From a virus, in IMG/VR virus record IMGVR_UViG_3300020183_000151, positions 1 through 43,696 of that record: DNA of 43,696 bases; one strand, 5' to 3'. Both the position numbers and the translations under genes were made by a program. Shown piece after piece: positions 8,216-19,391 of this stretch. How positions within the stretch are numbered: the stretch's first letter is position 1; every line of letters begins with the position of its first letter. The notes under the pieces were generated by a model. That model was not told the origin of the DNA. It was given only the letters and a program-made list of their open reading frames with translations, and did not search any database.

Positions 8216-8602
8216 TTATTTATTTAGACGGAACTTTGCATAAGGTATAGAAAGCATCTCATCAAGTTCATCATACTTTATAACGTGAAGTTTTCCTGCA
8301 ACTTCTTCCCAGGTATATTGTCTTCCTTGTCTCCAATGAAAATTGATTGCTTTAAATCCCCACTTCTCTAATGATGTACAAGCAATCAAAGGATGTTGGT
8401 CATACTCAATATTTGGTGTCTTTGGATTATAAATGAATGTATAAAACTTTCCTGGTTCTGGATACAATACTTCTTCCTTTAATACATCTGTAATAATCAA
8501 CATTAAGTCTTCTGGATCTTTTGCTCCTTCTTTGTCAATTCTTTTTTTTAACTCTCTCATTCTTGGAGGAATACCAACATACTGTCCGAAACCTTCTGCC
8601 AT
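8216..8602 (-). CDS. Conserved hypothetical virion-region protein, 128 aa
   Basis: A 128-residue protein starting MAEGFGQYVGIPPRMREL. It contains LYPEPGKFYTFIYNPKTPNIEYDQHPLIACT and a WGFKAINFHWRQGRQYTWEEV segment. The aromatic-rich, beta-type composition suits a small structural or assembly protein, and similar proteins accompany gp4 and gp48 in cyanophages. No T4 counterpart is recognised. Its ATG overlaps the gp4 stop (TAATG), so translation is coupled; its own stop is reused in the late promoter for gp48. Confidence 0.75.
   Translation of the reverse strand: MAEGFGQYVGIPPRMRELKKRIDKEGAKDPEDLMLIITDVLKEEVLYPEPGKFYTFIYNPKTPNIEYDQHPLIACTSLEKWGFKAINFHWRQGRQYTWEEVAGKLHVIKYDELDEMLSIPYAKFRLNK
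8217..8224 (-). promoter_or_regulatory. Minus-strand late promoter (AATAAATA)
   Basis: The plus strand reads TATTTATT, i.e. AATAAATA on the minus strand, 15 bases before the gp48-like ATG. It overlaps the TAA stop (8216-8218) of the preceding gene. Confidence 0.5.
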
Positions 8603-9048
8603 TAGAATAGATCTTTTTCTGTGATGATTTTAAATCCAATCATATTATCTTTGCAAAATTCCTCTGCTGCTCGCCACTTTGCTTGATTGGTTGCATATGT
8701 ATAAACCTCGTAGAGATATGATTTAGTTGCTCTTGATCTTGGTTTTGGTTCCATTGTTTGCTTTTGTGGTTTGATTTCTATAATATATTTTTTAATCTCC
8801 CCAGATTGCTCTTTCACTTTGATAATAAAATCTGGAAAGTATGTTCTTACTTTTTGTTTTACTGGGTCGTAATATTTGATACGAATTTCTTCGCTGCCCC
8901 ACGCAATTATATTTTCATTTAGATCGCACCAATAACAAAATTTTCTTTCCCAACTACTTCTACAAATAATATTATTAGGATTACCAATATATTTTTGAGG
9001 ATATGATGGTTTGTAGGTGGTCTTTAAACTTTCTCCCATTATCCCCAC
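8602..9048 (-). CDS. 4: Head completion protein gp4
   Basis: A 148-residue homologue of T4 gp4 (also called 50/65), needed to complete DNA-filled heads before tail joining. Diagnostic segments are YKPSYPQKYIGNPNNIICRSSWERKFC and YFPDFIIK. The arrangement E34 - PD (72-73) - EIK (91-93) is that of a TnsA-like/PD-(D/E)XK nuclease fold, so it may trim DNA at the packaged end. ATG 9039 is an alternative start that would remove three residues. It is the first gene of the minus-strand late operon and has a perfect TATAAATA promoter in front. Confidence 0.9.
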   Translation of the reverse strand: MGIMGESLKTTYKPSYPQKYIGNPNNIICRSSWERKFCYWCDLNENIIAWGSEEIRIKYYDPVKQKVRTYFPDFIIKVKEQSGEIKKYIIEIKPQKQTMEPKPRSRATKSYLYEVYTYATNQAKWRAAEEFCKDNMIGFKIITEKDLF

Positions 9049-9081: not shown

Positions 9082-9963
9082 ATGCCTACCGAAAGGAACA
9101 TAGCACACATTAAAGCAAACTTACTTCATCCTGCACTTACATCTCATTTTGAGGTCACTATTCCAAACCCTACAGGTTTGACTCCGCAATATTTATCTCA
9201 AAATGGAGTCAGATATGACGAAGACAAATTAAATCTTCTTTGTTCTGAAGCAATACTTCCAGGGTCTCAACTTGCAACTCATAGTATTACCGGAGACTTC
9301 CACGGAGCTACTCACAAACATGCATATAGGAGACAATTTGATGATCGTATTGACTTAACTTTTTATGTTGATGCTGAAAATTATCTGCCAATTAGATATT
9401 TTGAAACTTGGATAAAATATATTGCAGGAGAATCAATTGCTTCAGACGCAGGACGGCCCGGAACTGAAAATAGTGAATATTTTTATAGGATGAATTACCC
9501 CAAAAATTATATTTGCAATCAAGGACTTAAAGTAACTAAATTTGAGAGAAGTAGTATTGGTAATGTTGAAGGAACAAAAGCTGGTCAAATGACTTATAAA
9601 TTTGTAGATGTTTTCCCAATCGCTGTTAACTCAATGTCTGTTTCTTATGATGCATCTTCATTATTAAAATGTACGGTTTCATTTTCTTATGTTAGATATT
9701 TTATAGATAGAGCAACTGCTGCTGGTCCTGCATCTCCTCAGGCAGCAACTGGGGATCCATCTTCCTCCAATTTTAATGCAACACCACAGCAACTCGCACC
9801 TTCCTCCAATTTTAATGCAACACCACAGCAACTCGCACAGATTAATAATCAAGCATTTAACCCTAATGTAAATTTAAGTAGTGTTACTGGAAATATTACT
9901 CCTGGTGGAGTTCCTTTTGATAGTGCTGGTGCTTCGCAAGCATCAAACTTTACTCTATTTTAA
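9082..9963 (+). CDS. 54: Baseplate tail tube initiator gp54-like protein
   Basis: A 293-residue protein of the tail-tube fold family. It has LLCSEAILPGSQLATHSITGDFHGATHKHAYRRQFDDRIDLTFYVDAEN in its first third, and FVDVFPIAVNSMSVSYDASSLLKCTVSFSYVRYF near residue 205; both are hallmarks of the gp19/gp54/gp48 group. Length suits gp54 (320 aa in T4), which sits on the baseplate and initiates the tube, rather than the 163-aa tube subunit gp19. The C-terminal tail is low in complexity and contains a 13-residue tandem duplication. No ribosome binding site is visible before ATG 9082, and the palindromic promoter runs up to the start codon, so the mRNA leader must be very short or start further upstream. 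Confidence 0.65.
   Translation: MPTERNIAHIKANLLHPALTSHFEVTIPNPTGLTPQYLSQNGVRYDEDKLNLLCSEAILPGSQLATHSITGDFHGATHKHAYRRQFDDRIDLTFYVDAENYLPIRYFETWIKYIAGESIASDAGRPGTENSEYFYRMNYPKNYICNQGLKVTKFERSSIGNVEGTKAGQMTYKFVDVFPIAVNSMSVSYDASSLLKCTVSFSYVRYFIDRATAAGPASPQAATGDPSSSNFNATPQQLAPSSNFNATPQQLAQINNQAFNPNVNLSSVTGNITPGGVPFDSAGASQASNFTLF
9761..9838 (+). repeat. Perfect 39-nt tandem duplication within the gp54-like gene
   Basis: Positions 9761-9799 and 9800-9838 are identical, 13 codons each, encoding SSNFNATPQQLAP followed by SSNFNATPQQLAQ. Identity at every base implies a very recent duplication. Confidence 0.93.
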
Positions 9964-10016: not shown

Positions 10017-10736
10017 ATGGGACTCCCAAAAATTTCAACACCAACTTATGAACTTGAGTTGCCCTCTACAGAACAATCAATCAAATATAGACCTTTTCTT
10101 GTTAAAGAAGAAAAACTTTTAGTTATTGCATTGGAGAGTGAAGATACAAAACAAATCACAAATGCAATCAAAACAGTCATCAAAAACTGCATTCTTACCA
10201 AAGATATTAAAGTAGAAAATTTACCTACTTTTGATATTGAATTCTTGTTTCTTAATATTCGTGGTAAGTCTGTTGGTGAAGAAGTAGACGTTAATATTAT
10301 TTGTCCAGACGATAATGAAACCAATGTCTCTGTAAGTATTAATCTTGATGATATTAAAGTGCAAAAAAGTGAAGATCACACTAATAAAATTAAAGTAGAT
10401 CCAACAATTATGATGGAAATGAAATATCCATCACTTGAGCAGTTTATTAAAAATAATTTTGATTTTAATAATCAAAATGCTATGGATCAATCTTTTGATC
10501 TTATTGCATCCTGTATTGATAAGATTTATACTGAAGATGAAGTTTGGTCTACTTCTGATGTTACCAAAAAAGAAGTTACTGAATTTTTAGAATCAATGAA
10601 CTCATCTCAATTTAAGGATATTGAGAAGTTCTTTGAGACGATGCCTAAACTTTCGCATAAGATAAAAATTAAAAATCCAAAGACAGGAGTGGAAAGTGAA
10701 GTTGTTTTAGAAGGGTTAGCAAGTTTTTTCGCATAG
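10017..10736 (+). CDS. 26: Baseplate hub assembly protein gp26
   Basis: A 239-residue member of the T4 baseplate protein family (gp26; 208 aa in T4). The N-terminal LPSTEQSIKYRPFLVKEEKLLVIALES and AIKTVIKNCI segments are characteristic. In T4 gp26 acts in hub assembly with gp51, whose gene is next to it. Here too a small ORF follows, and the gene ends in a slippery T-TTT-TTC run with a hairpin ten bases further on, so part of the product may be extended by -1 frameshifting to about 301 aa. The position just ahead of tape-measure-like genes is that of a tail assembly chaperone. Confidence 0.82.
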   Translation: MGLPKISTPTYELELPSTEQSIKYRPFLVKEEKLLVIALESEDTKQITNAIKTVIKNCILTKDIKVENLPTFDIEFLFLNIRGKSVGEEVDVNIICPDDNETNVSVSINLDDIKVQKSEDHTNKIKVDPTIMMEMKYPSLEQFIKNNFDFNNQNAMDQSFDLIASCIDKIYTEDEVWSTSDVTKKEVTEFLESMNSSQFKDIEKFFETMPKLSHKIKIKNPKTGVESEVVLEGLASFFA

Positions 10737-10754
10737 GAATGGTCCATATGGACC
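10711..10754 (+). promoter_or_regulatory. Candidate programmed -1 frameshift cassette
   Basis: AAGGG (10711-10715) resembles an internal ribosome-binding stimulator. The heptamer T-TTT-TTC (10724-10730) is in the gene 26 frame. After a 10-base spacer the perfect palindrome GGTCCATATGGACC (10741-10754) can form a 5-bp GC-rich hairpin. The -1 frame is open across the gene 26 stop and continues into the ORF ending at 10921. Confidence 0.55.
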
Positions 10755-10921
10755 TTGAGAATTACTTTAGACTTAATTTTTCTTTGATGCAGTACCATAA
10801 ATATTCATTATGGGAAATTGAAAATATGATTCCTTGGGAAAGGGATATTTACGTTGGTTTATTACAACAACACCTTGAAGAGGAACAACTAAAACAGCAA
10901 CAACAAAAATCTAATTTCTAA
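10748..10921 (+). CDS. Small gp51-position protein, possible frameshift extension of gp26
   Basis: 57 residues from ATG 10748 (MDLENYFRLNFSLMQYHKYS...), or 60 from ATG 10739. AGGA at 10735-10738 is nine bases from 10748 but touches 10739, favouring the later start. The central IENMIPWERDIYVGLLQQHL is helical and is followed by a Gln/Lys/Glu-rich tail. The ORF is in the -1 frame relative to gene 26, and no stop separates the two after a slip at 10724-10730. Position suggests the role of gp51 (hub assembly), or of the T part of a lambda-like G/GT tail assembly chaperone, but sequence similarity to T4 gp51 (249 aa) is not evident. The initiation codon lies in a potential hairpin. Confidence 0.65.
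   Translation: MDLENYFRLNFSLMQYHKYSLWEIENMIPWERDIYVGLLQQHLEEEQLKQQQQKSNF
10796..10803 (+). promoter_or_regulatory. Intragenic late promoter candidate (CATAAATA)
   Basis: CATAAATA lies inside the small ORF, 130 bases before the 827-aa gene. It is the only late consensus site near the three giant genes and could give them an extra start. It may also be coincidental coding sequence (HKYS). Confidence 0.35.
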
Positions 10922-10932
10922 TGTAAAAGAAA

Positions 10933-13416
10933 ATGGTAGCAGCAAATCCACAGAAATTGATGGGAAGCACCAAAACAGTTCAATCTGCTGTGGTTCAACC
11001 CCAGCAACAATTGGTTGCTGCTCCTGCGGATACTGCTGCTCTTCAAGACATTTCAAAGTCTCTTGCAAAAATTACTCAACTTCTTACTCAACAAAATTAT
11101 CAGGTTACTGCAGAAGCAAATCAAGAAAAAAAGAATCAAGAAAACGCTAGAAGAAAAAAAATAGAACTTGGATTAGAAAATAGTTTTGTAGCAGTTAAAA
11201 ATGTTGCTCAAGCAGTTGTTGCACCTGTAAAAAGTATTCTTGATCAGATTATACAATTTTTTGTTACTTTATTTATAGGAAAAGCAATATTAAATTTGAT
11301 AGATTGGTTTTCTAAAGAAGAAAATCAAGGTAAAATAAGATCTATTGCTAGATTTTTAAAAGACTGGTGGCCATCTCTTGTTGCTGGTTACATACTTTTT
11401 GGCACAGGATTTGGTAGAGTTGTAAGAAATCTTGCTGGTATTGGTCTAAGAGTAATTACAGGTCTTGGTGGAATAGCAGTCAAACTTGCAGGTGCTATAG
11501 CATCTGCGCTTAAGTTTAAAAAAGCAGGAGCATTATTATCTGGTCTTGGTGGTGGAGGAGGATTTAAAGGTCTTGCTGTAAGATTGGGAGTCGGGGCTCT
11601 TATTACTGGTGGTGGTGTTTTAGCAGCAAAGAGTATGATGGGTGGAGAGGATGCTCCACAAGTATCAGTACCAGAACCAGCAACCTTACCAACTGCAGAA
11701 GCATTTGGTGGGGGTCTTATTGATTTTAAGACGATGCTTGCTGCCTCTGGTGGGCAAGTTGATTCCAAACTAGGTATCTTTGCACAGCTTTTTGGGTCTG
11801 GTGGATTTGCAGGAATATTGAATAGTATCCCTGGAGTCGTATCTGGACCAAAAGGTATTGATAAAGTCCCTGCGATGCTGACAGACGGCGAGTTTGTGAT
11901 GTCTCGTGGTGCTGTTCAGAAGTTTGGTGTTAATACTTTAGAGGCAATGAATGCCGCAGGTGGAGGAACTAATAAACCAAAAATTGTTCAGAAAAGAATT
12001 TATGCTGCTGGTGGTGGGATGATCAGTGATAGGGACACAAGAAACTTTGCACGAGAGCAGTCAGTTCAGGTTGGGAGCGAGTCAAGAACATATGGTGGCG
12101 TTGATGATCGCAGAAGAAAATATGATGCAGTGCATGGTGCAGGCGCTTATGATAGGGAAAGTGCAAGAAGGAGAGCATTAGCCAACGCAACACCAGACGA
12201 AAAAGTAAATCTCCCTCCGATAAAAACTGGTAGTGAATATCACAAAAATAACCCCCCAACAAAAAGACCTACATCTACACCTTCTATAAGTGGAATGAGT
12301 ACTCTTCCACAGATAGACATTAAAAAAATGTCTAATAGTGCTGCCTCAAGTGCTCAAGGTCTTGTTGAATCTGTTAGTGCATCAACCGGAATTGGTAGTG
12401 GAAAACTAACTCCAGAGCAACAAAGAAGAATTGCTAAAGATGACGCAGAAAGAAAGAAAATTATACAAAAAGCGCAGCAAAGAAGAATGGGAGATGCACA
12501 AATAAGAAAAGAATGGAATAGAGCATTTAGTGATCCAACTCATCCTCTTTATGAAAAAGCTGCTTTTGGAGATTTAAATTACTCACAGTTTAAAAAAGAT
12601 TATCTGGCAAAACAGGGAACAACTGCCACACCAGCAGCAGGGACAGGATATACTCCATATCAATCTAGATTTGCAGGTGCTCGTGATGCTGCTTTTGCAG
12701 AGGCACAGGGACAATCTAGTATGAATCCATACAATCCAATGAATTTGTTTAAACCTGGAGGAACTTTTGGTGGTCCAAGAATGCAGGCAAGAACTGATTA
12801 TGCTGCATCAAAAGGAAAGTATTATTCTTCATCAGATCAAAAAACATATGGAAGTTACAATGATGCGATGGCTGCAAAAAAATCTAGAATGACTTCTCTT
12901 GCATCTCAACAAAGACTTGATAAGTTAAGTAGAGCTGGTGCAACTAGGTCATCAAGAGGAGTTAGATTTGAAGCAGAAGCTGAAGCAAGACGTGAAGATT
13001 TTAAGAAGAGAGGTGGACTTCTGGGGCAAATAGGAAGAGGGTTTACCTCAATGTTTGGATCTCAAAAAGATATTGATAAAAATAAAGCAGCAGACGCAGC
13101 AGCAACATTGAAAATGAAACAAGCAGGTGCAGAATCTATTGGTAGATACTACTCCTCATCTGATGGTAAGTATTATGCTAATTTTGCTGCAGCCGATAAA
13201 GCACAAAAAGCAAGAAAAGCAAAACTTGGAGCAACTCCAGTAAAAGGAAAACAAATAACTCCAACACCAAAACCAGCACCAAAGGTATATAATCCTGCAG
13301 GTGGTGGAATGGGTGGTGCAAGAGGTGGCAAGCGCCCAAAACCAAAAAAACAAGTGCCAAAAATACCTCCAGGTAAAGATAATAGGAAAACTGCAAATCA
13401 GTTGAATATTAAATAA
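10933..13416 (+). CDS. Tape-measure/hub-like structural protein 1 (827 aa)
   Basis: The N-terminus is Gln/Ala rich with a Lys/Glu-rich coiled-coil-like stretch (about 35-85), followed by hydrophobic segments near 104-124, 146-190 and a glycine-rich one at 203-234. Residues 305-345 contain KVPAMLTDGEFVMSRGAVQKFG, a motif common in tail tape measure proteins and echoed in the next two genes. The C-terminal half is basic and low in complexity, with two related repeats starting YYSSSDQKTYG (about 630) and YYSSSDGKYYA (about 736). Between gp26 and a gp27-like gene, this and the next two genes fill the place of T4 genes 27-29, so a tape measure or inner hub role is likely. Its stop overlaps the next start (TAATG). 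Confidence 0.7.
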   Translation: MVAANPQKLMGSTKTVQSAVVQPQQQLVAAPADTAALQDISKSLAKITQLLTQQNYQVTAEANQEKKNQENARRKKIELGLENSFVAVKNVAQAVVAPVKSILDQIIQFFVTLFIGKAILNLIDWFSKEENQGKIRSIARFLKDWWPSLVAGYILFGTGFGRVVRNLAGIGLRVITGLGGIAVKLAGAIASALKFKKAGALLSGLGGGGGFKGLAVRLGVGALITGGGVLAAKSMMGGEDAPQVSVPEPATLPTAEAFGGGLIDFKTMLAASGGQVDSKLGIFAQLFGSGGFAGILNSIPGVVSGPKGIDKVPAMLTDGEFVMSRGAVQKFGVNTLEAMNAAGGGTNKPKIVQKRIYAAGGGMISDRDTRNFAREQSVQVGSESRTYGGVDDRRRKYDAVHGAGAYDRESARRRALANATPDEKVNLPPIKTGSEYHKNNPPTKRPTSTPSISGMSTLPQIDIKKMSNSAASSAQGLVESVSASTGIGSGKLTPEQQRRIAKDDAERKKIIQKAQQRRMGDAQIRKEWNRAFSDPTHPLYEKAAFGDLNYSQFKKDYLAKQGTTATPAAGTGYTPYQSRFAGARDAAFAEAQGQSSMNPYNPMNLFKPGGTFGGPRMQARTDYAASKGKYYSSSDQKTYGSYNDAMAAKKSRMTSLASQQRLDKLSRAGATRSSRGVRFEAEAEARREDFKKRGGLLGQIGRGFTSMFGSQKDIDKNKAADAAATLKMKQAGAESIGRYYSSSDGKYYANFAAADKAQKARKAKLGATPVKGKQITPTPKPAPKVYNPAGGGMGGARGGKRPKPKKQVPKIPPGKDNRKTANQLNIK

Positions 13417-16268
13417 TGGCAAAAATGATTTCTCCCTTAACAGGAACCTTACAATCTATTAAGAAGCAGTTTATTAGTAAGGAGAAACTACTTAAATCTA
13501 CTCTGAATGTTCAGAAAAAAAGAATTACTTTAAATCAGTCTAATGCAGAAAGAGAAAGATTTATTGATTATGAAAAAGTATTAGAAAGACCTCTACGTTC
13601 TTTAGGAACAGGTATTAAGAGTGTGGTGGGTAAAAGACTTGGGTTTTTAGATACTCTCAAAACTTTTATAGTTAATGTTTTACTTGGATTTGTTGCTTTA
13701 AGATTATTAAAATATCTTCCACAACTCATACAATTTGCAACTACTGCTTTAAAAGTTGGAAATTTTATTCTCAATACTGCTGGAAACATATTAAATGGAT
13801 TGATTACTTTTGTTGATTATGGATATCAAGCATATGATCATGCAAGAAAAATTGTAGGAAAGGTAGGTGGTGAAAAAGCAATCTCAGCTTTAGATAATGC
13901 TACCAGTGAAAGCACTAAACTAATAAATCAACTTTTAATTGCTGGAATGTTATTCAGTGATTTTAGTCCATTTGCAGGATTGTCAAGTGCCCCAAAAGCC
14001 ATGGAAGCAACTGCTGATGCTATTAAGAATAAGGTGTCTGGTGAAGTTGCAAATGCTGCAGCAGATGCAGCGACAAAAACGGCAGGAAAATTGGCACTTG
14101 GTCCCTTAGCATCTGCTGGAATTATCATTGGTGCTGGATTGCTTTTCTCTGCTGCTGGTGAGGGTGTATTTCAGTTAACAAAATGGACAAAAGGATTGAT
14201 TGGTTTTGGACCAATATCCAAATTTTTTCAGGTTCCTCTTGGTATTCTAGAGGGAGTTGGAACTCTTTTTGATATTGTTGGTGCTCCTTTTAGATATGGT
14301 ATTGAGTTGGTACGTGCTGGATTTATGAAAATGTTTAATATGAAAGATGGATTGGAAAAACAAGCTAAAAATCTTGGTAAGTTTGATGCAAGAATAAGAG
14401 AAAATTTTAGAAGATTATCTGGAGTTTTTGCACCGGTTTTTAGTTTTTTTGGTCAACAAGATACTGCTAAAAAATTATCAACTCCTGGGTCTTTTGGAAG
14501 TTTGTATGGTGAAAAAGCAGTTAAAGATATGGGATATAGTGGTGGTGGACGAGTAATATCAATTCAAAAATATGCTAGAGGTGGATCTGTTGTTGATATT
14601 CCAAGAACAGAAGTAAAGGAAGTTGATATTCCTAGAGGTGAAGATATCAAACAAGCACCTACAAAACCAGGTGCTTCTATTGGTGGTGAAGAACGTTTTG
14701 CTGAAGTTTTTCCTAGTTCGGGAGGCGATAATTCTAAAATGGATCGTTATGGTTATATGACTGATTCTTATGATACGATTAGTTATATTTCTGATTTGGG
14801 TTCAGTATTTGCTCTCACAACCAAAACTTTATTGGGAGATCAAGTTATAAAAGATGATTATGATAGAGCAGCTGGATCATTAAGTAGTTTTATGCTATTG
14901 GGATTATATGAAACAAACCCAGGAGCATATCAAAAGTTTTCTTCTTTGATTGATATTAAACAATTTAATAGATCAATATCAGGATTTTTAATGAAGTCTA
15001 TGAGTGTACCGCTTGGAGGTATTATAAACTTACTAAAAATTCAAGTTGGACTTATTCCAAAACCAGATGAAACTACAAGTGCAACTCAGACAGGTAGTGA
15101 AAGTCCCGATGATATGGTTGAGGGATCAGTTCCAGGTGGACAATTGACTATGGAGCAATTAGTGGGACTTGCAAAAGGTGCTGGTTTTTCTGAAAATGAA
15201 GCAGTTATTATGGCTGCCATAGCAAAAGCAGAATCTGGTGGAAATTCAAATGCCAAAAACTTTAAACCACCAGATAAGTCTTATGGATTGTGGCAGATCA
15301 ATATGATAGGGAGACTCGGACCAGCGAGAATGAAGGAGTATGGTCTGCAGAGTGAAGATCAATTATTTGATCCTGTTACTAATGCTAAAGCAGCGTATGC
15401 AATTAGAAAAAGTCAGGGATTGGGTGCATGGACGGTTTATAAAACAGGAAAATACAGAGCACACTTAACTGCAGCAGAGGCAGCGAGGAGCGCACCATCA
15501 CTGAGCACTTCACCAACATCTACCAAAATTAAACCTGTTTCTTTATCATCAACTCAAAATAAATCTGGGTATAAACCATCAAGTCCTGGATTATTTAATG
15601 CAATTGAGTATATCACTGGAGATCCAAGTCATCCCAATTTTGAATTGTCAGGACATGGATTGCCTAAAAATTATCATGATCATATTGCTTTTTCCACTGT
15701 CGAAAACAAGGAAAAGGCAAAGAAAGCATTGCAATCATCTGGAATTAAAATTGGTAGTGAATTTAGATCTGGGGATCCTGGATATCATGGTTCTAATTTG
15801 GCTATTGATATTCCTGGTATTCAATGGGGTGGATCTGGTGCAATTGGGCAGAGAGAGTTTAGTGGATCTGCTAAAGTGCGAAGTATTTTGGGATTGAATG
15901 ATTCAATTCAATCGGGAAGAATGTCTGGTGGCCCAACTCTTCTGGGTGGAATTAGATTACTTCATAAAGGCGAGTACGTAATTGATAAGGATTCGGTTGA
16001 CTTGTTTGGCGGAACTTCTTTCTTTGGTATGATTAATGGAGTTGAAAACAAAAAACAAAGATCTGAAAAATCTTCTCAACTAATACAGCATTTGAGTAAA
16101 TATACTGGAAGAAAGATAGATCAAAGACCTGAAGTGATTGTTGAGAACTCTGATCCTATAATAATTCAGGGACCACCAACTTATATTGAATCAGCGTCTT
16201 ATGAAGGATCTTCTGGTGGTGGTTTTGGATCTAATTGGGAACAAGATATGTTGGAGTTGAGAGCATAA
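13416..16268 (+). CDS. Tape-measure/hub-like protein 2 with lytic transglycosylase and M15-like domains (950 aa)
   Basis: The N-terminal ~50 residues are charged. A hydrophobic segment (about 76-132) with LGFLDTLKTF and LLKYLPQL is shared with the next protein, as are GAPFRYGIEL and GSFGSLYG further on. Residues ~578-690 form a lysozyme-like transglycosylase domain: E606 in AKAESGGN, SYGLWQIN at 622-629 and a DPVTNAKAAYAI helix. Residues ~735-805 carry YHDH (H754, H756) and HGSNLAID (H791, D798), spaced like the zinc ligands of M15-type DD-peptidases. A GEYVIDKDSV motif (near 850) parallels GEFVMS of protein 1. It probably sits in the tail lumen or hub and opens the cell wall during DNA entry. 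The stop is three bases from the next gene. Confidence 0.75.
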   Translation: MAKMISPLTGTLQSIKKQFISKEKLLKSTLNVQKKRITLNQSNAERERFIDYEKVLERPLRSLGTGIKSVVGKRLGFLDTLKTFIVNVLLGFVALRLLKYLPQLIQFATTALKVGNFILNTAGNILNGLITFVDYGYQAYDHARKIVGKVGGEKAISALDNATSESTKLINQLLIAGMLFSDFSPFAGLSSAPKAMEATADAIKNKVSGEVANAAADAATKTAGKLALGPLASAGIIIGAGLLFSAAGEGVFQLTKWTKGLIGFGPISKFFQVPLGILEGVGTLFDIVGAPFRYGIELVRAGFMKMFNMKDGLEKQAKNLGKFDARIRENFRRLSGVFAPVFSFFGQQDTAKKLSTPGSFGSLYGEKAVKDMGYSGGGRVISIQKYARGGSVVDIPRTEVKEVDIPRGEDIKQAPTKPGASIGGEERFAEVFPSSGGDNSKMDRYGYMTDSYDTISYISDLGSVFALTTKTLLGDQVIKDDYDRAAGSLSSFMLLGLYETNPGAYQKFSSLIDIKQFNRSISGFLMKSMSVPLGGIINLLKIQVGLIPKPDETTSATQTGSESPDDMVEGSVPGGQLTMEQLVGLAKGAGFSENEAVIMAAIAKAESGGNSNAKNFKPPDKSYGLWQINMIGRLGPARMKEYGLQSEDQLFDPVTNAKAAYAIRKSQGLGAWTVYKTGKYRAHLTAAEAARSAPSLSTSPTSTKIKPVSLSSTQNKSGYKPSSPGLFNAIEYITGDPSHPNFELSGHGLPKNYHDHIAFSTVENKEKAKKALQSSGIKIGSEFRSGDPGYHGSNLAIDIPGIQWGGSGAIGQREFSGSAKVRSILGLNDSIQSGRMSGGPTLLGGIRLLHKGEYVIDKDSVDLFGGTSFFGMINGVENKKQRSEKSSQLIQHLSKYTGRKIDQRPEVIVENSDPIIIQGPPTYIESASYEGSSGGGFGSNWEQDMLELRA

Positions 16269-16271
16269 AAA

Positions 16272-19200
16272 ATGGCGTATATTAAACTAAAAGATCCCAC
16301 TTCTTTTATAATTAAAAAACAAGTTGTCCAAGTAGAAAAACTTGTAGGGCAAAAAAATAAATTTAAGGAGATTGCGTTTAAGCAAAAAATAAAACTGACA
16401 GAAAAACGTCGTAGAGAAGAAACAGAAGAATCTCTTGAAAAATATGAAGACCGAGGAAGTAAAATAAAAGGATTTTCTACTCCACGTCTTGGATTTCTTG
16501 ATAGTGTAAAGAACTTTTTATTCACTGTTTTATTTGGATCACTAGCTCTTAAACTATTACCATATCTACCACAACTAAAAGGATTATTAATTACCACTCT
16601 TAAAGTTGGTAACTTTGCAATTGAATTTGCAGGGACAATTTTAAATGCAATGGTGACTTTTATAGACAAGGTATATGGAATTATTGATTTTGGAAAACAA
16701 CAAGCAAAAATTCTTGGTGGTGAGAAAGGAGTAAAAGGTTACGAAAATATGTTGGGAATGATGAACAAGGTTATGAATAGTGTATTCATTGCTGGGATGT
16801 TATTCTCAGAATTGATTGTGATAAAAGCACAGGCAGATGCCAATCAAAATGCTATTGGAGAAATTGGAGAAGCAGTTTCGGAGGAAATAATAAAACGACA
16901 AGGATTTAGAGCGATCATTCAATCTCTTGGTCAGAAAATTGGTGTTCTCGCAAGAGGTGTGGGTGTTGTTGCCCTTGTTGGATTAGCATCTTCACTTTTA
17001 GGTGAACTGATGTTTCAACAAAGGAAATTTACAAAAAAACTTGAAAATGATGTCGCATATCAACTAAAGGAAGCAAATTTTGATCCAAATCCAATAACAA
17101 GAGCACTTAAACTTGTAGCATATAACGCTGCTCTTCCTGGACTTAAATTTTTTAATTTTGTTTCAACTGGAGTTGGAACATTACTGGATATTATTGGAGC
17201 TCCATTTAGATATGCAGGAGAGTTACTTAATCTTGGTATCATGTCTCTCACAGGTGACTCTGATGGGATTAGAAGACAAAGAGAAAATCTTGAAAAACTT
17301 GATGCAAGAATAAGAGAACAAATCAGAGAGATAGTGAATACTTTAAGTTTAGGAACTCTTGCAAAAGAAAAGGGTTCCTTTGGGAGTTTATATGGTAGTG
17401 GTGCAACAAAGGCAATGGGATATGCCTCTGGTGGCGCAGTTACTAGAGAAGGTGAAGAAGCAATTGGTGGTGTAATTACTAGATCTGGAGGTAAAAAGGC
17501 AATATTAAGAACATTTGAAATTCCAATGTCTCCACTAAATCCAGGAGCAGATGTTGGTGGGAAGATGAATTATGTGGATCCGACCACTGGGTTTCCTTCA
17601 CCAAAATCTAATATAGAAACATTTTTTCCAAATCCAGAAAATCCTCAATATATAAACCCATATTCATACTTAACTGGTTCATATAACGTAGTGTCTTCAG
17701 GTGAATTTCTAAAACCATTTTTACAGATGCCCATTAAAATGATTATGGGTAATGGTTCATCGGAGGGTGACTACAACTCTCTTGCATCATCAGTCAACAA
17801 TCTATTTGTTACTATATTAAGAAGGACCTTAGTTCCAGGAACCAAAAACTCTATAGCAGATGAACTTGGATTTGTTGATATTTTTAGTTGGGTTAGAGAT
17901 GCTATAGGAGAAAGTATGATTGATCCCGTGAATACTTTGTTACAATCTTTAAAAGAACAATTTATGCTTAAATCCGATGCTGGTCGAGGAATAGTTAAAG
18001 GTGCTGATGCTGAACCTGGTGCAGAATCTGAGGGCATTCAAGATGCTTCTATATCTGCAGGTGAAATGGATTTACTTACAAGAATGGTTTATGCAGAAGC
18101 AGGGGGAGAAGGAAAGACTGGAATGGCTTTAGTTGCAAGAGCAATTTTAAATCGTGCTGGGCTAATACAATCCGGTAAGGTTGGTGCTGGCACTTTTAAT
18201 GCTAAGAGTGGTAGTATAACTGATGTTATTAATGGAAGAGGGCAATTTTCTCCAATAACTGATGGTAGAATTAATCAAAAGTTATCAGACTCTCAAATTA
18301 GTCAAGCTAAAGATGCAATAACACTTGCACAAAATCCAGCACAATTGATGTCTGTATTAAAAAGTGAAGGTCTTGATGATATATCAATTAAAAAATTAGT
18401 TGCCTCAACCGGGTTTAGAAATTATGATGCAGGTGCGGGACAAGATCGTTCTCAACAAGTAAATGAGGTTAAATTTAAAAGGCATACTTTTAATACTGCG
18501 GGAAATGCTGGACTTGTTGTTCCACAATCTATTTCTATTGCCATTTTAAGGGAAGAATCTTCTGCTAATAATATTAGTTCTGGAACTGGAGGCACTCTTG
18601 GTGGTGGTAAATTTATTCAAGGTAATTCTGGTGCGTCAGCGGGAGTTCATTTTCATATCGGACCAGGAAGTCAGGCAGGTGGAACAATACTACAAAAACA
18701 ATATTTTGGTGATGCAAGAGCAACCGCAAAACAAGCAATTGATTATTTCTTAAGTAAAGGTAGTAGAGTATATGATGGAAGAAGGGGAGTTTATTATAAG
18801 TCTGGGAATGAAGTAGATGCAGCACAAAGAGCACATACAGCATCTGGATCTGCTGGTGGAATTGATATGCAGGTTGATTTTGAGAAACCTGTACCATTTC
18901 CACTAAAAACAACAGCTATGGCATATCGTCGAAATGGTTTTGGTGTGAGTGCTGATATTGTGGGATCTAATTCATTTGTAGCACACGGTAGATTTGATGA
19001 AAAAGGTAATGTCGCTCCACAAGAACGAATGAAATTGTATGCTAAAGGTGGTCCTGTAAATAAAACTGACTATGCACTGACTCATCCAGGAGAATATATT
19101 GTTGATGAAGACTCTGTAAGACTTTATGGAATGAATTTTTATGATATAATTAATAAGGTAGAAACAGTATCTCAGAGAAGGAACGCTGCTGATAGTTTAA

Positions 19201-19391
19201 TATCCATCTTAAGTCAATATACCGAAGATGGATTCCCCGAAACTGAAGATGATTATAGTTATCAAGTTTCTACACCAGAAGTTATAATGATTCCGGGTCC
19301 AGTTATTGAAGAATATGCATCATCTGGTTTTGGTGGAGGTGGAGGTGGAGGTTCAGAAGATCCCTCTCAAGATTCTGGAGAACTAAGGTAA
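16272..19391 (+). CDS. Tape-measure/hub-like protein 3 with SleB-like and M23-like domains (1039 aa)
   Basis: It has the same N-terminal plan as the previous protein: a charged start, PRLGFLDSVKNFLFTVLFGS (71-90), LLPYLPQL, LKVGNF, then GAPFRYAGEL, LDARIREQIRE and GSFGSLYG. Residues ~599-720 match SleB-type cell wall hydrolases: YAEAGGEG (E609 as likely catalytic acid), LVARAILNRAG and GQFSPITDGRI (about 657-667). Residues ~785-800 contain GVHFHIG with H793 and H795, like the HxH of M23 endopeptidases, though the second ligand pair is unclear. GEYIVDEDSVRLYG near 940 repeats the tape-measure motif. A glycine stretch lies near the end. It likely degrades peptidoglycan and takes part in hub or tape functions. 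The start is four bases after the previous stop. Confidence 0.75.
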   Translation: MAYIKLKDPTSFIIKKQVVQVEKLVGQKNKFKEIAFKQKIKLTEKRRREETEESLEKYEDRGSKIKGFSTPRLGFLDSVKNFLFTVLFGSLALKLLPYLPQLKGLLITTLKVGNFAIEFAGTILNAMVTFIDKVYGIIDFGKQQAKILGGEKGVKGYENMLGMMNKVMNSVFIAGMLFSELIVIKAQADANQNAIGEIGEAVSEEIIKRQGFRAIIQSLGQKIGVLARGVGVVALVGLASSLLGELMFQQRKFTKKLENDVAYQLKEANFDPNPITRALKLVAYNAALPGLKFFNFVSTGVGTLLDIIGAPFRYAGELLNLGIMSLTGDSDGIRRQRENLEKLDARIREQIREIVNTLSLGTLAKEKGSFGSLYGSGATKAMGYASGGAVTREGEEAIGGVITRSGGKKAILRTFEIPMSPLNPGADVGGKMNYVDPTTGFPSPKSNIETFFPNPENPQYINPYSYLTGSYNVVSSGEFLKPFLQMPIKMIMGNGSSEGDYNSLASSVNNLFVTILRRTLVPGTKNSIADELGFVDIFSWVRDAIGESMIDPVNTLLQSLKEQFMLKSDAGRGIVKGADAEPGAESEGIQDASISAGEMDLLTRMVYAEAGGEGKTGMALVARAILNRAGLIQSGKVGAGTFNAKSGSITDVINGRGQFSPITDGRINQKLSDSQISQAKDAITLAQNPAQLMSVLKSEGLDDISIKKLVASTGFRNYDAGAGQDRSQQVNEVKFKRHTFNTAGNAGLVVPQSISIAILREESSANNISSGTGGTLGGGKFIQGNSGASAGVHFHIGPGSQAGGTILQKQYFGDARATAKQAIDYFLSKGSRVYDGRRGVYYKSGNEVDAAQRAHTASGSAGGIDMQVDFEKPVPFPLKTTAMAYRRNGFGVSADIVGSNSFVAHGRFDEKGNVAPQERMKLYAKGGPVNKTDYALTHPGEYIVDEDSVRLYGMNFYDIINKVETVSQRRNAADSLISILSQYTEDGFPETEDDYSYQVSTPEVIMIPGPVIEEYASSGFGGGGGGGSEDPSQDSGELR

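Follow-up and report, generated by a model that had tools for sequence, protein, structure and literature searches.

Among the closest described systems, lambda G/GT is a tail assembly chaperone made with a frameshift (Levin 1993; Xu 2004, as cited in PMC5009743), and T4-like phages that, in place of frameshifting, carry one short copy and one long, fused copy are attributed to Vladimirov, Gautam and Davidson 2022 (Virology 566:9-15) in the account given by the PRFect paper (PMC10885494). As cited in PMC12846349, Vladimirov et al. 2022 also found poly-T frameshift signals in the genes for the short chaperone form (TAC-N) of T4-like phages. Here we analysed the complete IMG/VR virus record IMGVR_UViG_3300020183_000151 (43,696 nucleotides, hereafter the window), the DNA of a marine cyanophage, in which gene 26 and the small open reading frame (ORF) behind it very probably constitute a single tail assembly chaperone gene, with frameshifting yielding short and long forms. 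The abstract of the Vladimirov study reportedly describes frameshifting as apparently conserved across several groups of T4-like phages and names genes 26 and 51 as those used by T4. An initial annotation of the window had supposed that frameshifting was new for gp26/gp51, which does not stand, as T4-like gp26/gp51 were, according to the citing papers, already recognised as tail assembly chaperones, some groups using a frameshift and others split genes. Because such frameshifting is known in T4 relatives, the window is a well-supported example and not a discovery; we found no openly accessible description in cyanophages, the 2022 study being available to us through papers that cite it. The comparative hairpin evidence may be new relative to prior work. 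The elements of the cassette are as follows.

10017..10736, plus strand: gene 26, predicted short form of the tail assembly chaperone (TAC-N), 239 amino acids.
10711..10715, plus strand: AAGGG, putative Shine-Dalgarno-like upstream stimulator, 8 nt 5' of the heptamer.
10724..10730, plus strand: slippery heptamer T TTT TTC in the gene 26 frame (TTT 10725-10727, TTC 10728-10730).
10730..10921, plus strand: −1 frame extension (TAC-C; gp51 in other annotations), 63 residues past the slip.
10734..10736, plus strand: zero-frame stop TAG of gene 26, with one GCA codon between heptamer and TAG.
10739..10921, plus strand: small ORF as usually annotated, probably no independent gene (ATG 10739, stop 10919-10921, −1 frame).
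10741..10754, plus strand: hairpin GGTCC-ATAT-GGACC, proposed 3' frameshift stimulator, a perfect 5-bp stem with arms 10741-10745 and 10750-10754.

Already open ahead of the slip site, the −1 frame continues through the TAG to 10921, such that the conceptual fusion of gp26 with this frame has 301 amino acids and reads SFF-RIGMVHMDLENYFR across the junction. The heptamer, the −1 phase, the open frame across the stop and the fusion length were all read directly from the sequence where the initial annotation had placed them, as were the AAGGG and the perfect hairpin 10 nt past the heptamer. Among the 23 plus-strand window genes checked, gene 26 alone had an in-frame heptamer of the T6 type near its stop. 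Its product matched the Pfam family T4_baseplate (PF12322, 4e-77) and PHROG 150 (baseplate hub, 1.5e-80), and the small ORF matched PHROG 634, 'baseplate hub assembly catalyst' (1.8e-27).

Conservation was assessed in 357 loci whose gene end could be read, obtained from IMG/VR scans with seven gene 26 queries and from GenBank phages. An in-frame slippery heptamer near the stop was present in 335 of these, nearly always as T TTT TTC and sometimes as T TTT TTT, and in every one of the 357 the −1 frame ran on for 49 codons or more beyond the stop, while the +1 frame was shorter than 40 codons in every locus. A lack of conservation of the heptamer or phase in relatives, which the initial annotation had named as a refutation, is contradicted by these counts. 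The loci include Enterobacter phage fGh-Ecl04, which has a T4-type gene 26 and a long −1 frame that is the next gene (gene 25), so this phage provides no evidence for a fusion. In the relatives, gene 26 is terminated by a stop ahead of the C domain. A sequencing error or a decayed gene was considered and ruled out because the same arrangement recurs in hundreds of contigs.

The slip site was also constrained at the synonymous level. In deduplicated cyanophage loci the gene end read T-TTT-TTC in 139/139 cases, whereas other Phe-Phe codon pairs of gene 26 were TTTTTC in 5/162. Within the window's group, the synonymous diversity ratio was 0.00 at both slip-site Phe codons, compared to 0.86 of expectation gene-wide. 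The AAGGG showed no synonymous constraint beyond its conserved Glu-Gly codons (ratios 0.82 and 1.04), through which AAGG or GAGG is present in nearly all relatives. Frameshifting at the gene 26 slip site is very likely.

The start codons of the downstream domain bear on whether the small ORF is instead a gene of its own, with independent translation or termination-reinitiation at ATG 10739 and the heptamer incidental. The window and many relatives do have an ATG soon after the TAG, with the first ATG at codon index 3 of the C domain in 159/324 loci, and GenBank records annotate the C domain as a separate ORF (gp51) or not at all; in KJ019040, KJ019128 and MH629685 the match is covered by an annotation of the gp26 gene alone and the C domain is missed. 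However, 68/324 loci, including L099-L129 and similar cyanophage loci, have no ATG, GTG or TTG in the first 8 codons of the C domain, and in some there is none before codon 33, so that initiation at a standard start could not yield the whole C domain there. Sequence conservation begins at the slip site itself (FFR...), the heptamer of the deduplicated cyanophage loci and the phase are invariant, and in T4 the C domain belongs to a longer protein. We therefore regard a separate gene as very improbable, and the comparative evidence suggests that the cyanophage 'gp51' is usually not a gene in its own right.

The stability of the downstream hairpin was assessed by comparing folding with that of synonymous recodings that preserve the protein. 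In four cyanophage groups, the 45 nt past the slip site had mean z scores of −2.68 (the window's group), −1.81, −3.88 and −3.03, and other positions tested in either gene were clearly less stable relative to the recodings. The window's own hairpin had z scores of −2.4 to −3.3 and was within the most stable 1-2% of protein-preserving recodings. By comparison, the global fold of 101 nt around the site was not exceptional (z = −0.35), and the signal is confined to the local hairpin. Among 64 related sequences, double changes occurred at 5/5 pairs of the stem and filled 36 cells compared to 13.1 when shuffled, counts that are inflated by kinship among the 64 sequences. This covariation was equalled in 0/500 shuffles, and the hairpin register outscored every slid version. 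A Val/Ile wobble base was coupled to the first base of an Asp/Asn codon (C-G 38, U-A 13, C-A none), a coupling for which the sequences offer no evident protein-level reason. Other clades had hairpins of different sequence and longer stems, and in P-SSM2-like and S-N03-like phages the stem was about 10-11 bp and started 5-7 nt past the heptamer. We lean towards the view that in marine cyanophages the slip site has stayed invariant while the stimulatory hairpin was rebuilt, clade by clade, in new sequence and register under selection.

The hairpin and the composition of the slip site also bear on slippage of the RNA polymerase on the T run, by which a fraction of mRNAs with an altered number of U would encode the fusion in one frame. 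Transcriptional slippage is used by other phage and bacterial genes, and the slip site contains six consecutive T. Yet the run is six T followed by C in nearly all loci, which is short for efficient slippage, the codon phase is precisely that for tandem slippage, and a selected downstream hairpin would not yet have formed as the polymerase passes. Polymerase slippage is accordingly hard to credit as the source of the fusion.

With ribosomal frameshifting as the preferred reading, we infer a slippage efficiency at which most ribosomes would terminate at the TAG and release gp26 (239 amino acids, TAC-N), while a minority would shift back one base on U UUU UUC. The tRNA-Phe would re-pair from UUU to UUU in the P site and from UUC to UUU in the A site, with the hairpin 3' of the slip site presumably promoting slippage. 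Ribosomes that slipped would produce the 301-amino-acid long form with its predicted helical C-terminal domain (TAC-C). If lambda G/GT is a guide, the tape measure protein may be coated by the short form, and recruitment of tail tube subunits or the hub may fall to the long form.

Protein comparisons were consistent with one gene encoding both forms. A profile of the fusion aligned end-to-end with T4 gp51 (gp51 residues 8-245, 233 columns, E = 1.9e-13) and scored 93.7 against it, compared to 60.0 for gp26 alone, and the T4 gp26 profile matched the N part of the fusion (1.2e-21); these E-values are from one-against-one profile comparisons and are uncorrected for a database search. In T4, gene 26 encodes 208 amino acids and gene 51 encodes 249, and, judging from these alignments, T4 appears to encode each of the two forms in a gene of its own. 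For gp26, an AlphaFold2 model reached a predicted local distance difference test score (pLDDT) of 93.7. In realignment, its top PDB match was the HK97 tail assembly chaperone gp13 (2ob9), over residues 1-86, with 84 aligned residues, a root-mean-square deviation of 4.1, 7% sequence identity and Z = 7.9, a value within the range of chance matches. The next matches were 3fgx and then 3klu (YqbN), uncharacterised bacterial proteins that we take to be prophage chaperone-like; all matches were over residues 1-96. Foldseek alone gave no significant PDB match for the gp26 model, with the HK97 chaperone weakly present, and sequence searches of gp26 and the C domain against solved structures returned no relatives. 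The model of the C domain was helical (pLDDT 84). The HK97 match lends support to a TAC-N fold in the modelled protein and is not proof of it. The link to tail assembly chaperones drawn in the initial annotation is backed by the T4 gp51 alignment together with this fold match.

The argument for a single frameshifted chaperone gene thus draws on the conserved cassette, the constraint, the domain homology and the fold match, and several observations pull the other way. Besides the chance-range Z score, the window's stem is short (5 bp) and begins 10 nt past the heptamer, slightly over the usual 5-9 nt, and the hairpin signal was weak in the Pelagibacter/alphaproteobacterial phage group (z = −0.95, then −1.55 ten bases further). 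Ackermannviridae relatives (L088, L345-L362) lack the canonical heptamer and retain the −1 phase, with extensions of 49-53 codons and gene ends such as GAAATTTTCATTTAA. The window's small ORF also does possess an ATG (10739).

Three long genes lie downstream of the cassette (10933-13416, 13416-16268 and 16272-19391), for which a role as tape measure is plausible, and two of them are adjacent paralogues.

13416-16268 (950 amino acids) and 16272-19391 (1039 amino acids), plus strand: two adjacent paralogous long genes, candidate tape measure proteins.

The paralogues share about 31-33% identity over about 600 amino acids, both contain hydrophobic segments, and their C-terminal lytic domains differ (SLT vs Hydrolase_2). 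Together with the gene at 10933-13416, their sequences suggest that they may constitute a multi-protein tape measure. Elsewhere in the window, the head closure (gp4-like) gene on the minus strand (8602-9048) also matched the TnsA endonuclease N-terminal domain of Pfam (1.3e-22), and the tail tube gene contains, at 9760-9840 and close to the C terminus, a tandem repeat coding for SSNFNATPQQLA twice.

The chaperone role is proposed on homology and analogy, and the frameshift could be real with a product acting solely in baseplate hub assembly, without any role as a tape measure chaperone. In T4, both gp26 and gp51 are counted among the hub assembly chaperones, and the particle lacks gp51 (PMC3004832). 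A hub-only role, which we consider unlikely, is opposed by the resemblance in fold to the HK97 tail assembly chaperone, by the short/long architecture and by the long candidate tape measure genes downstream. As gp29 of T4 serves as hub protein and tape measure alike (PMC3004832), the hub and tape-measure views may coincide.

These results provide strong comparative support for gene 26 frameshifting in cyanophage myoviruses, and the clade-to-clade hairpins offer a natural series for the evolution of frameshift stimulators. The T4-like gp26/gp51 chaperones are the same proteins as those of the window, and poly-T frameshift signals are likewise reported, in the literature citing their description, for T4-like TAC-N. 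In T4 the short and long forms are separate genes, 26 and 51, whereas the window would use a frameshift, which is consistent with the view that T4 encodes separately what a frameshifted gene yields as two products. The HK97 gp13 (2ob9) differs in that gp26 carries about 150 extra residues. From lambda G/GT, which has the slip site G GGA AAG and for which we know of no comparable downstream hairpin, the window differs in its slip site, U UUU UUC, and in having a selected hairpin downstream. Both share the pattern of a short form and a minor long form, as lambda is summarised in PMC5009743. The Vandenendeviridae and Andersonviridae, in the description given by PMC12846349, are similar in having a myovirus tail chaperone in which the −1 phase is conserved and the slip site is rich in T, but belong to other phage families and use a GTTTTT motif, not T TTT TTC. 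Among the loci analysed here, that of Vibrio phage VP-1 bears GTTTTT. Taken together, the comparisons support the window's cassette as a chaperone gene in the style of lambda G/GT, with gp26 as the short form and gp26-51 as the long form.
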